Source: Meiothermus ruber DSM 1279 (lineage in GTDB: Bacteria > Deinococcota > Deinococci > Deinococcales > Thermaceae). Taken from it: a DNA stretch of 64,000 nucleotides. The position numbers and the translations under genes are program-made. How positions within the stretch are numbered: position 1 is the stretch's first letter; every line of letters starts with the position of its first letter. Location of the stretch: NCBI RefSeq assembly GCF_000024425.1, contig NC_013946.1, positions 1,922,001 through 1,986,000 of the forward strand. Reading direction: 5' to 3'. Positions 56,414-61,849 of the stretch are shown here, piece after piece. The notes below the pieces were generated by a model, which saw only the letters and a list, made by a program, of their open reading frames with translations, made no database searches and was not told the origin of the DNA.

Positions 56414-57496
56414 GTGACGCTGCGCAGGGTGCCGGTTTTCGCTTACGACTGGGTGCTGGTTGGCCTGGTTTTGCTGATTAATCTGATTGGCCTGGTCACC
56501 CTCTACAGCGCAGCGCCCAGCCGCGGGGTCTGGCTACAGCAGATGCTGGCCTTCCCCATCGCCCTATCGGTGGGCCTGCTGGTGCAGTTGTTTTCCCGCC
56601 GCCAGGTGCTTTCCTGGGCCTTTCCACTGTATGCGACGTCGTTGGTTTTGCTGGTGCTGGTTTTGCTGGTTGGGCGCGAGATTAACGGGGCCAAGGCCTG
56701 GTTCGACCTGGGCCCGGTCAGTTTTCAACCGCTCGAGCTGGCCAAAATTGGCCTGATCCTGGTATTGGCTAAAGTGCTGGCGGCCCGCCCGCTGGAGCGC
56801 TGGCTGGATTATGCGCTACCGGCTTTGCTAGCAGCCCCCATTCTGGGTCTGGTATTCATCCAGCCCGACCTGGGGGGCACCCTGGTGCTCATCGCGGGGC
56901 TGCTGGGGATGCTGTTTGTGCGGGGCATGCCCACCATCCATATCGTGCTGGGGCTCCTGACGGTGGCGGTGCTGGTGCCCACAGTGATCTGGCCCAACCT
57001 TAACCAGTACCAGCGGGATCGGGTGGAAATTCTGTTCGACCTGTCCAAAGACCCCAAGGGCAAGGGCTTCCAGCAGATCCAGTCCACCATCGCCATCGGC
57101 TCGGGGGGCCTGATGGGCAAGGGCTTTGGGGCCGGCACCCAGACCCAGTTGGGGTTCGTGCCCGAGCGCCAGACCGACTTCATCTACGCTGTGCTGGCCG
57201 AGGAGTGGGGCTTTGTGGGTGCGTCCACCCTCATGGTGCTGTACGCTTTGCTCTTTTTCCGGCTGGGCCGCATGGCGCTGGAGTGCGTGCGCCTGGAGGA
57301 TCGCCTCATCATCGTGGGGGTGCTCTCCATGCTGGCTTTCCAGGTGGTGGTCAACATCGCGGTCACGCTGGGCCTGGCCCCGGTCACCGGCCTGACCCTG
57401 CCGCTCATTTCCAAAGGTGGCAGCAGCCTGATTATGGTGTATCTGGGGCTGGGGCTGGCCCTGCTCATCCACCGCGACCGCTACAGCGAGGTATAA
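56414..57496 (+). CDS. rodA: Rod shape-determining protein RodA (SEDS peptidoglycan glycosyltransferase)
   Basis: 360-residue SEDS polymerase with ten predicted helices that extends glycan strands during cell elongation. INGAKAWFDLGPVSFQPLEL near residue 88 and KIGLILVLAK follow the family; the catalytic Asp is in IQPDLGGTLV near 150, and ERQTDFIYAVLAEEWGF near 256 and TGLTLPLISKGGSSL near 330 are classic SEDS blocks. GTG start. No mre or pbp genes are in the window. Confidence 0.94.
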   Translation: MTLRRVPVFAYDWVLVGLVLLINLIGLVTLYSAAPSRGVWLQQMLAFPIALSVGLLVQLFSRRQVLSWAFPLYATSLVLLVLVLLVGREINGAKAWFDLGPVSFQPLELAKIGLILVLAKVLAARPLERWLDYALPALLAAPILGLVFIQPDLGGTLVLIAGLLGMLFVRGMPTIHIVLGLLTVAVLVPTVIWPNLNQYQRDRVEILFDLSKDPKGKGFQQIQSTIAIGSGGLMGKGFGAGTQTQLGFVPERQTDFIYAVLAEEWGFVGASTLMVLYALLFFRLGRMALECVRLEDRLIIVGVLSMLAFQVVVNIAVTLGLAPVTGLTLPLISKGGSSLIMVYLGLGLALLIHRDRYSEV

Positions 57497-57579: not shown

Positions 57580-57759
57580 ATGCCTTTAGGCCCCACCGAA
57601 CTCATCATCATCCTGTTGATCGTGGTTTTGTTGTTTGGCGCACGCAAGCTGCCCGAGCTGGCTCGAGGTCTGGGCCAGTCGGCCCGGGAGTTCCGCAAAG
57701 GGTTGAGCGAGGACGAGAAAAAACCCGAAGAGAGCAAACCCGAGCAAAAACAGTCTTAG
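57580..57759 (+). CDS. tatA: Twin-arginine translocase subunit TatA
   Basis: 59-residue protein with the TatA pattern: short N-terminus [11 protein letters not shown], one helix, the FGARKLPEL hinge, an amphipathic helix [15 protein letters not shown] and a charged tail rich in Glu and Lys. It forms the pore of the Tat pathway for folded proteins. AGGAGG lies 7 bases before the ATG at 57580. tatC is not in the window. Its stop codon overlaps that of modC on the other strand. Confidence 0.93.
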
Positions 57760-58763
57760 GCAAGAGGTATCAGGTGCAAAAAGCGGGGCTCGAGGGCCAC
57801 CTCGAGCCACTGGCCTTCGGCAAGCTCGAGCTGGGCCTGTTTGTAGCGCGGCAGGAAGAAGTCCAGGCCCACCGCGCCCACCATCAGCTCGCCCCGCACC
57901 CGCAAACCCTGCGCGCGCAGGTTCCGTACCTGGCCTCGGATGCGGTTTTCAGGGCCGTCCTGGGTAAAAACTTCCTCCGGGCGAACCCCCAGCATCACCC
58001 GCTGCCCAACTGAAATGCCGTTTCGGCAGGGGGCTTTGAGGATGCCCAGGGGGGTTTGCACCTGCACCCATGCGCCATCCACAGCCAGAACCGTGCCCTC
58101 CAGAAGGTTACGAAAGCCCACCAGCCGGGCCACCTCGAGGCTCGCAGGACGGGCAAATATCTCTTCGGAGGTTCCCTGCTGGGCCAGCCCTGCTTTGGTC
58201 AACACGGCCACCCAGTCGGCCCGCTGGGCCAGCCAGTGGTCGTGCGAGGCCGCCAGGGTGGGTATCTGCAGCGATCTAAGGCGCTCCAGCACCCCTGCAA
58301 AAACCTCCTCCCGGGTCGCCGCATCCAGGGCACTGGTGGGCTCATCCAGCAATAGAATCTGGGGCTCGCGGGCCAGGGCCCGGGCCAGGGCCACCCGCTG
58401 CTGCTGCCCACCGGACATCTGGCGGGGGAAGCGCTCGGCCAGTTCGGCCATGCCCATCAGCTCGAGGTAGGCCAGGGCCTTCTTTTTGCGGGCCGGAGGG
58501 GGCAGGTGGGCCAGCGGAAAGGCCACGTTCTGCCAGGCCCGCAGGTGGGGAAACAGGGCCAGATGCTGGGGCAGGTAGCCCACCCTTCGCGCCTCGGCCC
58601 GCAGCCCGGCAAAGGGCTGGCCCCTGGCCGGAATCAGGCCGGCGATGGCCTTGAGCAGGCTGGTCTTCCCCACCCCGCTCTCGCCCAGCAGTACCGTAAA
58701 GCCCCGCACCTGCAGGCTGAGCTCGAGCTTTACCGGGTGCTCGAGGGCATACGCGATCTCCAC
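57756..58763 (-). CDS. modC: Molybdate ABC transporter ATP-binding protein
   Basis: 335-residue ATPase with Walker [10 protein letters not shown] near residue 28, signature MSGGQQQR near 115, Walker [13 protein letters not shown] near 135 and a C-terminal TOBE-like domain (LGVRPEEVF then [13 protein letters not shown]) that can bind the oxyanion. The GTG start at 58763 lies inside modB (34-base overlap). Tungstate or sulfate cannot be excluded. Confidence 0.88.
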
Positions 58764-59410
58764 ACGTCCTCCAGGGTTCGCACCAGGTACACCAGGGCAA
58801 AGCTCACCAAAAGCAAGACCCCCGAGGCCTCGGCGGCCCGCCCAAACTGCAGGGCCTGTACCTGATCGTAGATGTAAATGCTCACCATCTGGGTTTTGCC
58901 GGGAAGGCTGCCCCCCACCATCAGCACCACCCCAAACTCGCCCAGGATGTGGGCAAAAGCCAGAATGGAGCCCGACAGGATTCCCGGCCAGGTGATGGGC
59001 AGGATAACCTCGAGCCAGACCCGCCGCCAGCCCGCCCCCAGCGTTCGCGCGGTCTGAACCAAGTCCAGATCCAGGCTGCGAAAAGCCTCGCGGTAGCCGT
59101 TCAGGGCAAAGGGCAGGCTAAACAGCACCGAGCCCACCACCAGCCCCTCGAAGCGAAAAGCCCAGCTCACGCCCAAAAACTGCGCCAAAGGGCCGTTCTG
59201 CCCCAGGAGCAACAGCAGGTAAAACCCCAGCACCGTGGGCGGCAGGGTGAGGGGCAGCAGCACGATCGATTCCAGCACCCGCTTACCCCAGAAGCGCTTG
59301 TGGGCCAGCACCCAGCCCAGCGGCAGCCCTACAAAAAGCAGAATCAGGGTGCTGACCAGGCCGACCTCGAGGGTTAATCGCAGGGTCTGCCAGAACACAG
59401 GGTCGTTCAT
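58730..59410 (-). CDS. modB: Molybdate ABC transporter permease
   Basis: 226-residue permease with five or six helices and the EAA-type loop DLVQTARTLGAGWRRVWLEV near residue 117, followed by FAHILGEFGVVLMVGG, typical of ModB. Its ATG overlaps the modA stop (ATGA). It forms the channel for the oxyanion. Confidence 0.9.
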   Translation of the reverse strand: MNDPVFWQTLRLTLEVGLVSTLILLFVGLPLGWVLAHKRFWGKRVLESIVLLPLTLPPTVLGFYLLLLLGQNGPLAQFLGVSWAFRFEGLVVGSVLFSLPFALNGYREAFRSLDLDLVQTARTLGAGWRRVWLEVILPITWPGILSGSILAFAHILGEFGVVLMVGGSLPGKTQMVSIYIYDQVQALQFGRAAEASGVLLLVSFALVYLVRTLEDVWRSRMPSSTR

Positions 59411-60261
59411 GGGGCTGGCTTCTCTCCTGGCAGCAAAAACCCATATTTGCGCAACACCTGGTGGGCCTCGGCCGTGCCCATGTACTCGTAAAAACGCTGA
59501 ACCTCCGGGCGGTTCTGGCCGCGCAGAATTACGTAGGTTTGGTTAAGGCGTAGATGGCTGCTCAAAGGGGCCAGCCAGTACACACCTGCACGCTCCATGG
59601 CCTCGCTCTTGGCGAGGGACAGGGCCACCAGGCCAATGTTGGTGCTGGTCAGGGCCAGCTGGGCGGTCTGGGAGATGTTCTCGCCGTAAACAAATTCAAA
59701 GCCGGCCTTGCCCCGCCGCAAAAAGCCCAGGTCGTAGTAGGCCGCAATGCCGCCAGTCATCTCCTCCCACCTTACCGGGCGGGTTGAACGCAGCAGGCCA
59801 AAGTGCTCCAGAAGCGTCACCCCCGCGCGGCCATACGGGGCGTGCATCGGGTTGGCGATGGCCAGTTGGGTAATCCGAGGGTCGAGCAGTATACGCGGCC
59901 CAAGCCGCCGAGGATCCAGCCCTTGCTGAACCAGAGCATTGGAGGCCCAAATTACCAGACGACCCACCGCGTACAGGCGCAAAGTGCCCGGCTCCACACG
60001 CCCGGCCTGCTGTAGCTGCATCGGGAAGGCTTCATCCGCCGAGAAAAACATATCGGCCGGCAACCCCTGCATCAATTGGGTATAGAGTTTGCCCGAGGAA
60101 CCAAAGGTAAGCTCGACCCGCAGACCCGAATTCCTGAGTTCAAAGCGCTGCGCGATCTCGGTCAAGGCATACTGGAGGTCAGCCGCCGCCACCACCCGCA
60201 CCGTGTTTTGCGCCAGGCCAAGCCCCAGCAACCACAACCCCAAGCACAGCCAACGAATCAT
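59407..60261 (-). CDS. modA: Molybdate ABC transporter substrate-binding protein
   Basis: 284-residue exported binding protein. The signal peptide is about 17 residues, ending LGLAQN. VVAAADLQYALTEIAQRF and LTFGSSGKLYTQLMQG with GLPADMFFSADEAFP give the oxyanion-binding serines of the ModA family. The ATG at 60261 has GGAGG 5 bases upstream. An operator-like palindrome lies 15 bases further upstream. Confidence 0.92.
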   Translation of the reverse strand: MIRWLCLGLWLLGLGLAQNTVRVVAAADLQYALTEIAQRFELRNSGLRVELTFGSSGKLYTQLMQGLPADMFFSADEAFPMQLQQAGRVEPGTLRLYAVGRLVIWASNALVQQGLDPRRLGPRILLDPRITQLAIANPMHAPYGRAGVTLLEHFGLLRSTRPVRWEEMTGGIAAYYDLGFLRRGKAGFEFVYGENISQTAQLALTSTNIGLVALSLAKSEAMERAGVYWLAPLSSHLRLNQTYVILRGQNRPEVQRFYEYMGTAEAHQVLRKYGFLLPGEKPAP

Positions 60262-60275
60262 CTGGGCCTCCTTAT

Positions 60276-60317
60276 TAGTTACAGTGTAACTATATGGGCC
60301 CCGGCTTATTTAGACAA
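60276..60317 (-). promoter_or_regulatory. Promoter and operator of modABC
   Basis: On the minus strand -35 TTGTCT (60312-60317), 17-base spacer and -10 TATAGT (60289-60294) point at modA. A 17-base palindrome, TAGTTAC-ACT-GTAACTA (60276-60292), overlaps the -10 box and the start site, the expected place for a repressor, most simply the PadR-like protein encoded just upstream. Confidence 0.7.
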
Positions 60318-60854
60318 GGCCTGTCGTTGTGCCAGGAGTTGCTGGATAAACCCCAGGCTGGCCCTGGCCATCTCTATGCGCCACAGGATGGCTACCAGTT
60401 GGATGCGTTGGGCCGTTTGAAGGCGCTGCTGCAAATCCTCGAGGATGGCTTCAAAAACCCCTTCCTGGGCCCTCAACAGCGGCTCGAGGTCGTGCTCCAA
60501 GCGCAGCAAAAAAGCGATCTTCAACCGCAGATCCGAGCGGCCATGGCGCAGGCGCGTTACCGGGGTGTGCAGCCACCAGCGCGCGGCTTCCTGGCCCGCA
60601 AGGGTGGCCCTGTAGAGCGTTCGGGGTGGCCCGGCCTCGCCCTCCTCCTGCCGGATGGCCTCAATCAGCCCGCGGGCCTCGAGGTGCGCTAAAGCCCTGT
60701 AAACCTGCGTGCGCTGGATACGCCAGATCTCCCCCAGCTCACCGTTGGGAGCAAACAGCGCCGCAATGCGGAAGCCATGCGCTGGCTGCTCCAGCAAAGC
60801 AGCCAAAACCGCCCAGTCGGAGGTTGAGAGCCTGTGGACTGCTGCCGCACTCAC
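60306..60854 (-). CDS. PadR-like winged-helix regulator
   Basis: 182-residue transcription factor. The N-terminal winged helix runs from DWAVLAALLEQPAHGFRI through QVYRALAHLEARGLIEAI and RTLYRATLAG, and the C-terminal part (residues 110-180) is helical for dimerisation, the PadR layout. GTG start at 60854, with TAGGCT 6 bases upstream and TTGACA 19 bases further, again leaderless in form. It is directly upstream of modABC and no ModE is seen, so control of molybdate uptake is likely but unproven. Confidence 0.82.
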   Translation of the reverse strand: MSAAAVHRLSTSDWAVLAALLEQPAHGFRIAALFAPNGELGEIWRIQRTQVYRALAHLEARGLIEAIRQEEGEAGPPRTLYRATLAGQEAARWWLHTPVTRLRHGRSDLRLKIAFLLRLEHDLEPLLRAQEGVFEAILEDLQQRLQTAQRIQLVAILWRIEMARASLGFIQQLLAQRQALSK

Positions 60855-60922
60855 CCCTACAGCCTACGCAAGGCCATACCGGGGCTGTCAAACCCGGGGT
60901 TTCCGATGCAGCCACAATCGGG

Positions 60923-61363
60923 TCATTGCAAGCCCAGGGCTTTGCGGGCTTGGTGAACCTGGGCCGAGGTCAGGGTTTTGGCCCGCTGGGCCTTCACTTC
61001 GTCGGCGGTGAATGGTCTCTGGCCCGGCGGCAGCTTGTTGCCCCACTGGGTAGAGATGTGGTTAAGCAAGGCTGCCAGCTCAGCGTCGCTTAGCTGTCGG
61101 TAACCCGGCATGACCCCGTTGTACTTGCGCCCTTTTACGCTGATCTCACCACTCATGCCCCAGAGCAGGAGCTGGATAAGCCAGGTTCGGCCCCCTTTGG
61201 CCGCTAAAATCTCCGGAACATGCCCGGCCAACGGGGGAAACACCCCGGGGATGCCCGCGCCATTGGGTTGGTGGCAGCCCTGGCACTGCTGGTACAAAGC
61301 CGCGCCATTTTGCGCAAAAACCGGCAATAGCATCAGCATCAACACCGCTAACAATCGTTGCAT
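60923..61363 (-). CDS. c-type cytochrome (monoheme)
   Basis: 146-residue exported cytochrome. The signal peptide ends near residue 17 (MLLPVFAQ). CQGCH near residue 27 binds heme, and the Met in KYNGVMPGYRQLSD near 86 is the likely axial ligand. A basic C-terminal tail follows. It has GGAGG 7 bases before its ATG and follows a related cytochrome gene by 33 bases. The electron partner is unknown. Confidence 0.93.
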   Translation of the reverse strand: MQRLLAVLMLMLLPVFAQNGAALYQQCQGCHQPNGAGIPGVFPPLAGHVPEILAAKGGRTWLIQLLLWGMSGEISVKGRKYNGVMPGYRQLSDAELAALLNHISTQWGNKLPPGQRPFTADEVKAQRAKTLTSAQVHQARKALGLQ

Positions 61364-61396
61364 TCAACACCTCCTCGGCCCAGACCTCGAGCTTTT

Positions 61397-61849
61397 TTAC
61401 GGAACATTGATACGTGAGCGCAGGTCACCTATTTGTTGAGGGGTTGGGCGGCTGGTCGCATTGCGGGCGCTGCGCACCTCCGCTGCGGTGATAGGCCGGT
61501 GGTCGCGCGGCAGCAGTTTGTCGTTCCCCCAGGCGTTCAGGATGTAGTTGAGTATGCTGGCAATTTGCTCGTCGGATAGCTGGCCAAAAGCTGGCATCAC
61601 ACCGTTGTAGGTACTGCCTCTGACCCGCACCGGGCCCTGCATGCCAAACAGCATCACATTAATCAGGTGGGCCCGGCCCTCGGGGGTTTTTGCCAGCTCG
61701 GTGGCGTGGGCCGCCAGGGGCGGGAAGGCGCCCGGGCGCCCCTGCCCGTTGTCACCGTGGCAAAACGCACAGTTCTGCTGGTAAAGCTGGGGGCCCGACT
61801 GGGCCAGCGCCAGGCTGAGGACGGCTAGAAGCCCAAAGAGGTATCTCAC
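61397..61849 (-). CDS. c-type cytochrome (monoheme)
   Basis: 150-residue exported cytochrome with signal peptide MRYLFGLLAVLSLALA, heme motif CAFCH near residue 28 and STYNGVMPAFGQLSDEQIA near 80 with the Met ligand. It shares the layout and the YNGVMP and WGN(D)KL blocks with the next cytochrome, so the two are tandem duplicates that have diverged. No upstream partner gene indicates the donor or acceptor. Confidence 0.93.
   Translation of the reverse strand: MRYLFGLLAVLSLALAQSGPQLYQQNCAFCHGDNGQGRPGAFPPLAAHATELAKTPEGRAHLINVMLFGMQGPVRVRGSTYNGVMPAFGQLSDEQIASILNYILNAWGNDKLLPRDHRPITAAEVRSARNATSRPTPQQIGDLRSRINVP

Follow-up and report, generated by a model that had tools for sequence, protein, structure and literature searches.

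A PadR-type regulator gene and a candidate operator at the molybdate-uptake operon of Meiothermus ruber DSM 1279, with counterparts in a second phylum

The locus described here lies in a 64-kb window, the whole stretch of Meiothermus ruber DSM 1279 DNA that was analysed, and consists of a gene for a PadR-type regulator followed on the minus strand by modA, modB and a modC-like ATPase gene. As Table 1 shows, all four genes point the same way and the regulator gene is separated from modA by a gap of 44 bp (60262-60305), which confirms the original prediction that it directly precedes modABC. The best 25 NCBIfam matches of the ATPase, TIGR02142 among them, are all below their cut-offs, and the gene is called modC-like from its position in the operon. 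Molybdenum is needed by nitrate, sulfite and many other redox enzymes. Ahead of the regulator gene lie two cytochrome c genes (60923-61849) that share about 50% identity, and a cytochrome c match adjoins the regulator in 17 of the 22 Deinococcota loci described below.

Table 1. Features of the mod locus (window positions) and of two loci in a sister genus (locus positions).
Feature	Position	Strand	Basis or remark
PadR-type regulator gene, subfamily 1 size, 182 aa	60306..60854	-	PF03551 1.4e-12; proposed modABC repressor
modA, molybdate-binding protein	59407..60261	-	TIGR01256 1.4e-41, over cut-off
modB, permease	58730..59410	-	TIGR02141 2.1e-64, over cut-off
modC-like ATPase gene	57756..58763	-	PF00005 3.1e-28
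Putative operator, 17-bp palindrome TAGTTACA-G-TGTAACTA	60276..60292	.	Perfect 8+1+8 repeat
Predicted mod -35, TTGTCT	60312..60317	-	Consensus scan; within the last codons of the regulator gene
Predicted mod -10, TATAGT	60289..60294	-	Consensus scan; 4 bp shared with the palindrome
Putative regulator -10, TAGGCT	60861..60866	-	Sequence; 6 nt before GTG
Mop and small PF00174 genes	L109:4972-5478, L112:5185-5430		G023, G024, sister genus

The gap between the regulator gene and modA holds a 17-bp palindrome, our putative operator. With up to three mismatches allowed, it has one match in the window, with a mean of 0.00 in 100 shuffles, and in the whole genome (3,097,457 bases) both the 17-mer at up to two mismatches and its 13-bp core at up to one are unique to this gap. 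A consensus scan of 60200-61000 returns a single promoter-like site, TTGTCT-N17-TATAGT (60317..60289, minus strand), and TTGTCT or TTGTCC is found at the same place in several relatives; promoters throughout are consensus readings. The palindrome was originally described as covering the mod -10 box within a 44-base gap. The palindrome and the gap stand, but the whole of the -10 is not covered: four of its six bases are shared, and the palindrome therefore overlaps the -10 and continues over the likely mod start.

Against the PadR-like winged-helix model PF03551 the regulator scores 47.9 bits, with a curated cut-off of 27. In its AF2 model (mean pLDDT 91) the PadR winged helix is joined to a C-terminal domain made of helices, which span residues 108-118, 124-145 and 150-175. 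With its 182 aa and multi-helix C-terminal domain, the protein has the size and architecture of PadR subfamily 1, for which passages of PMC3506622 give a length of about 180 aa and a C-terminal domain of 80-90 aa built of several helices. The top Foldseek and VIA-align rows for the model are PadR proteins, Rv1176c (PDB 8ioi) being the best fold match (VIA Z 15.9, rmsd 4.3, 169 residues aligned), and Bacillus subtilis PadR and VanR are also close in fold. Rv1176c of Mycobacterium tuberculosis belongs to the PadR family and its sequence identity to the regulator is low (18%); we know of no link between it and molybdenum. A Pfam search found no metal- or anion-binding domain in the regulator, there is no match to a TOBE domain, and TIGR00637 is not among its three NCBIfam matches. 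No clear anion site emerged when residues typical of the family were sought: R106 and K112 are common in other PadR proteins as well, and R53 and R159 are more family-specific (in the residue comparison itself the numbers run two higher than these). In Meiothermus relatives the regulator is 91-96% identical.

Among 111 Deinococcota genomes the regulator has hits at E <= 0.001 in 29. Close homologues, with E values of 3.4e-26 or better, are present in 22 of these, and the other seven have weak hits only; within the genus, 17 of 18 genomes carry it. Mod genes in most relatives were recognised by tblastn with the proteins of the window or of two actinobacterial loci (L174 and L175, below) rather than by family models. 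The regulator is followed or faced by modA in 21 of the 22 close-homologue loci, and in the exception, L013, the contig ends inside the regulator. In L019 and L021 the regulator gene is separated from modA by genes for Mop (molbindin) and a small PF00174 protein. The ModA beside the regulator in these two loci and in L017 and L023 is only about 35% identical to that of the window, and the regulator therefore kept its link to molybdate uptake through a change of transporter lineage. Of the 21 loci in which this could be checked, 19 have a site within three mismatches of TAGTTACANTGTAACTA after the regulator gene; in L021 the operator is degenerate, and in L023, where regulator and modA are divergently oriented, it takes a divergent form, GGTCACAGCGTAACC, upstream of modA. 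The modB of L003 (G039:C2:73336-73945) is broken up by stops into several frames, through either sequencing error or decay.

The association extends to a second phylum. A contig scan with the family alignment gave 15 loci, two of them in actinobacterial MAGs (L174 in G111, L175 in G112), and both of these contain the regulator, modA, modB and modC together with a palindrome, TAGTCTCACTGCGACTA and TAGTCTCAATGAGACTA respectively. Eighteen of 396 genomes of the phylum of G112 match at E <= 1e-18. All 11 matches at E <= 2e-28 adjoin mod genes, with the regulator divergent from modA or downstream of modC; the link in G203 is the 42-aa end of modC at a contig edge only. With G111, where the regulator lies before modA, all 12 actinobacterial genomes that have a close homologue show mod genes next to it. 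Eight weaker actinobacterial PadR loci (7 genomes, E 4e-22 to 7e-19) have no modA or modB within flanks of about 1.5 kb. This two-phylum distribution comes from one scan with narrow peptide patterns and from the 396 genomes, which were drawn from a larger group. In a maximum-likelihood tree of 53 rows, the 34 mod-linked regulators form one clade (100/96), within which the two phyla are sister groups (91/81 and 93/84).

We searched modA upstream regions de novo with 5,376 gapped palindromes (256 tetramers x 21 spacers). TAGT-N9-ACTA ranks first, occurring in 12 of 12 actinobacterial upstreams (3 of 12 for the best of five shuffled sets), and 8 of 10 Deinococcota upstreams contain it too (shuffled best, 2). 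The Deinococcota set comprised 12 loci chosen of 22, with 10 examined, L019 and L021 being left out because the Mop gene separates regulator from modA. The strict pattern TAGTYANNNNNTRACTA has eight matches in the 12 actinobacterial genomes, seven of which are modA promoters; no mod match lies close to the eighth (G425:C4), and five of the 12 mod sites fall outside the pattern. Read backwards as a control, TAGTYANNNNNTRACTA has 12 matches in the same genomes, so that the pattern itself is not rare and it is placement that counts. In Deinococcota, TAGTYANNNNNTRACTA is found in 16 of 22 regulator-bearing genomes versus 3 of 89 without a close homologue (1 and 11, respectively, for the backward control), and 15 of the 17 sites in the regulator-bearing genomes lie in regulator-mod gaps, the others being at an importer in G028 and at G096:C168. 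The genomes without a close regulator homologue contain sites at up to two mismatches in G072, G073, G092, G097 and G110 (the G092 site, with one mismatch, is next to a gene without a Pfam match) and strict-pattern sites in G072, G095 and G110; all of these are taken as chance. Operator-like palindromes are found at modA in every layout, with the regulator before modA, divergent from it, downstream of modC, or on another contig, as in G203, where the modA-promoter site sits on a contig apart from the regulator. Since these palindromes persist whatever the position of the regulator, and since secondary sites occur at molybdenum genes, there is next to no chance that the neighbourhood alone is conserved and that the PadR protein, merely co-located with mod, controls other genes.

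In regulator-bearing Deinococcota there are nine further sites, at up to two mismatches, outside the regulator-mod gap, and seven of these are at molybdenum genes: six at sorA operons and one at the start of moaA. The sorA genes are of the sulfite-oxidase type, with a twin-arginine-like leader and PF00174 and PF03404 domains (families tested on the G034 copy). They are followed by a cytochrome c gene where the contig reaches that far (PF00034 in G034) and in most cases by a MOSC-type gene. The moaA site, TAGTTTCACTGTACCTA at L105:3210-3226, has two mismatches and overlaps the 5' end of the G034 gene (PF04055, PF06463). Of the remaining two, the G028 site precedes a PF01497 importer, and the G023 site has no molybdenum gene nearby. 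We also scanned the upstreams of 47 sorA-type loci with a matrix trained on 14 mod-promoter sites (15 chosen, one dropped). Six score 20-22 bits and the rest no more than 1.8, while 99.9% of shuffled pieces are below 10.1 bits; the six were first found by pattern, and the matrix scan is therefore not independent of the pattern search. The closest sulfite-oxidase-type gene of the window's own genome has no site (score 1.0), nor does the closest scanned sorA in eight other regulator-bearing genomes of the genus. In G040, a genus-mate without the regulator and without an over-cut-off modB, sorA is 92% identical to that of G034 and has no site.

As read from the sequences, the operator also lies over the -10 or the spacer of the sorA and G028 importer promoters, in differing phases. 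In our reading of the alignment, the site-bearing sorA genes have boxes resembling CTGGGT-N18-TAACGT, the right half of the operator forming the -10, and most aligned site-less sorA genes have TTGAGT-N17-TAACAT/TATAGT-like boxes at the same place. Positions over core promoters that differ in phase are more easily explained by steric repression than by an activator working from one set position. The -35 is weaker in the site-bearing promoters, for which dependence on an activator is another possible reading. Class-I activation at sorA, with the operator at about -60 relative to an AATACT box further downstream, was considered and is less likely given the aligned promoter boxes. A TACC...TGRGTA-like block around the -35 recurs in 16 aligned sorA upstreams, site-bearing or not (L115, L116, L117, L125, L126, L146 and ten further), while G036 diverges; a different regulator of the sulfite-oxidase operon may bind there.

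These observations make it very probable that the mod-linked proteins are a dedicated family of PadR-type repressors of molybdenum uptake with an operator over the modABC promoter. A dimeric winged-helix repressor would bind TAGTTACA-N-TGTAACTA over the -10 and start region and block modABC transcription while bound, and a signal of molybdenum need (or, with opposite sign, of sufficiency) would change its affinity for DNA. We infer binding and repression from the sequences, and binding as a dimer from the fact that TAGT-N9-ACTA shares the architecture, though not the letters, of studied PadR operators, which passages of PMC3506622 give as ATGT/ACAT repeats about 8-10 nt apart. In Meiothermus ruber DSM 1279 the modABC operon probably makes up the whole regulon; in some relatives a sulfite-oxidase operon has probably joined it and perhaps, in one case, a second importer.

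The effector of the proposed repressor is likely molybdenum or cofactor status. Molybdate as a corepressor would be sound logic at mod but odd for sulfite oxidase, which would be silenced at high molybdenum, and thus fits poorly. Typical PadR proteins are released from DNA by an inducer, and one may hypothesise an inducer that reports molybdenum need, which would suit both targets as well as this usual direction. The same habit of inducer release, together with the presence of the operator in the same repressing geometry, by our reading of the sequences, before a sulfite-oxidase-type operon in six genomes, would also suit a substrate or stress signal such as sulfite that calls for molybdoenzymes, with mod being co-induced. 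We consider this possible but unlikely: mod is the target common to both phyla, the closest sulfite-oxidase-type gene of the own genome lacks a site, and outside modA promoters the strict pattern is absent from 11 of 12 actinobacterial genomes, though a pattern that misses five of twelve mod sites would therefore miss other sites too.

A more specific proposal within the repressor model, and one that we regard as a long shot, is that the regulator senses metal-free molybdopterin and not molybdate. Metal-free molybdopterin would build up when molybdenum is short and enter a pocket like those in which studied PadR proteins bind flat aromatic ligands, and the bound regulator would be released from modABC and, in some species, from the sulfite-oxidase operon. 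If this were true, one inducer logic would explain the joint repression of uptake and a molybdoenzyme, and a protein in two phyla would do the job that the molybdenum-cofactor riboswitch does elsewhere. For that riboswitch (RF01055), the own genome gives no match among the 150 of 314 first-look candidates that were scored.

A ModE-type regulator is the obvious competitor for control of mod. According to passages of PMC545781, ModE is widespread but not ubiquitous, and consists of an N-terminal DNA-binding domain and two molybdate-binding domains, with a site of the form ATCGNTATATA-N6-TATATANCGAT. Matches to TIGR00637 over its cut-off are found in 0 of 111 Deinococcota genomes, and PF03459 (TOBE) has one match in the whole genome, in a 413-aa frame elsewhere. 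A ModE site elsewhere had been named as grounds for refuting the PadR prediction; the E. coli-type site has 0 matches in the 64-kb window at up to three mismatches, and the objection falls to that extent. The Desulfovibrio-type ModE motif has 11 weak matches in the window at 2-3 mismatches (shuffles, mean 4.06 and largest 10, n = 100), the best of which, at 57361 with two mismatches, lies in an ORF (56414-57496) beyond modC, with none in the regulator-modA gap.

The genome does encode a stand-alone ModE-type HTH protein of 115 aa (G000:C1:2458707-2458976; L095:3681-4028, minus strand), which reaches 72.0 bits with a TIGR00637 cut-off of 98.5 and contains HTH_1 only, with no TOBE or molybdate-binding domain. 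It is present in 17 of 18 genomes of the genus, the own genome and 16 of the 17 others, and in both genomes of each of two sister genera. For Desulfovibrio, passages of PMC545781 describe ModE proteins of a single domain and call their mode of sensing unclear. Such a protein might bind the palindrome and control mod, perhaps with a molybdate-sensing partner, the PadR gene being incidental. However, its distribution does not track with mod. G028, G057, G096 and G107 carry the PadR gene and mod without a ModE-type hit, the palindrome being present in G028, G096 and G107, whereas G040 has the ModE-type protein and lacks the PadR gene, the palindrome and an over-cut-off modB. The palindrome and the PadR gene have the same distribution, side by side in two phyla, and control by the ModE-type protein is accordingly very improbable. 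The claim of a PadR-like protein in the place of ModE is thus supported by the mod linkage in two phyla, the conserved operator at modA and the sites at molybdenum genes, and by the lack of any over-cut-off TIGR00637 match in the 111 genomes; the words "in place of" need to be qualified by the existence of the stand-alone ModE-type protein in the genome.

The proposed system resembles that of E. coli ModE in controlling the modABC promoter through an inverted-repeat site, but the Meiothermus regulator differs in its PadR domain, in lacking a TOBE domain and in its site. Desulfovibrio mod loci, for which passages of PMC545781 describe a stand-alone ModE HTH and MOP-domain chimeras with the site CGGTCACG-N14-CGTGACCG, are alike in having control that is not of the E. 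coli type through another inverted repeat, and unlike in the protein families involved. With the subfamily 1 proteins PadR, VanR and AphA the regulator shares an N-terminal winged helix, a size of about 180 aa, a helical C-terminal domain and, by prediction, a short inverted-repeat operator. Unlike theirs, the site here is TAGT-N9-ACTA and the genes are molybdenum genes; studied PadR members control detoxification, virulence or drug-resistance genes (passages of PMC3506622). PadR repressors and the control of mod are each known, and the combination is not found in the literature searched, which was mainly open-access and gave no report of a PadR regulator of molybdate uptake; it is likewise absent from the passages of PMC1274311, PMC7325909, PMC1978522, PMC3235269, PMC545781, PMC10845959 and PMC3506622 that were available. 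The proposed repressors would be a second regulator family, unrelated to ModE, whose operator is defined in both phyla. TAGT-N9-ACTA would serve as a marker for annotating molybdenum regulons. A single purified protein and a DNA of 17 bp would be enough to test what is sensed.

Finally, the regulator gene itself had been suggested to be leaderless. The hexamer TAGGCT, a putative -10, stands 6 nt upstream of the GTG and recurs immediately ahead of the regulator start in 12 of 22 related loci, which makes a leaderless transcript plausible. No operator was found at the regulator's own promoter in the Meiothermus ruber DSM 1279 locus. In G023 a three-mismatch operator-like repeat lies upstream of the regulator gene (L109:6325-6341), with a similar element in G024, and autoregulation is possible there.
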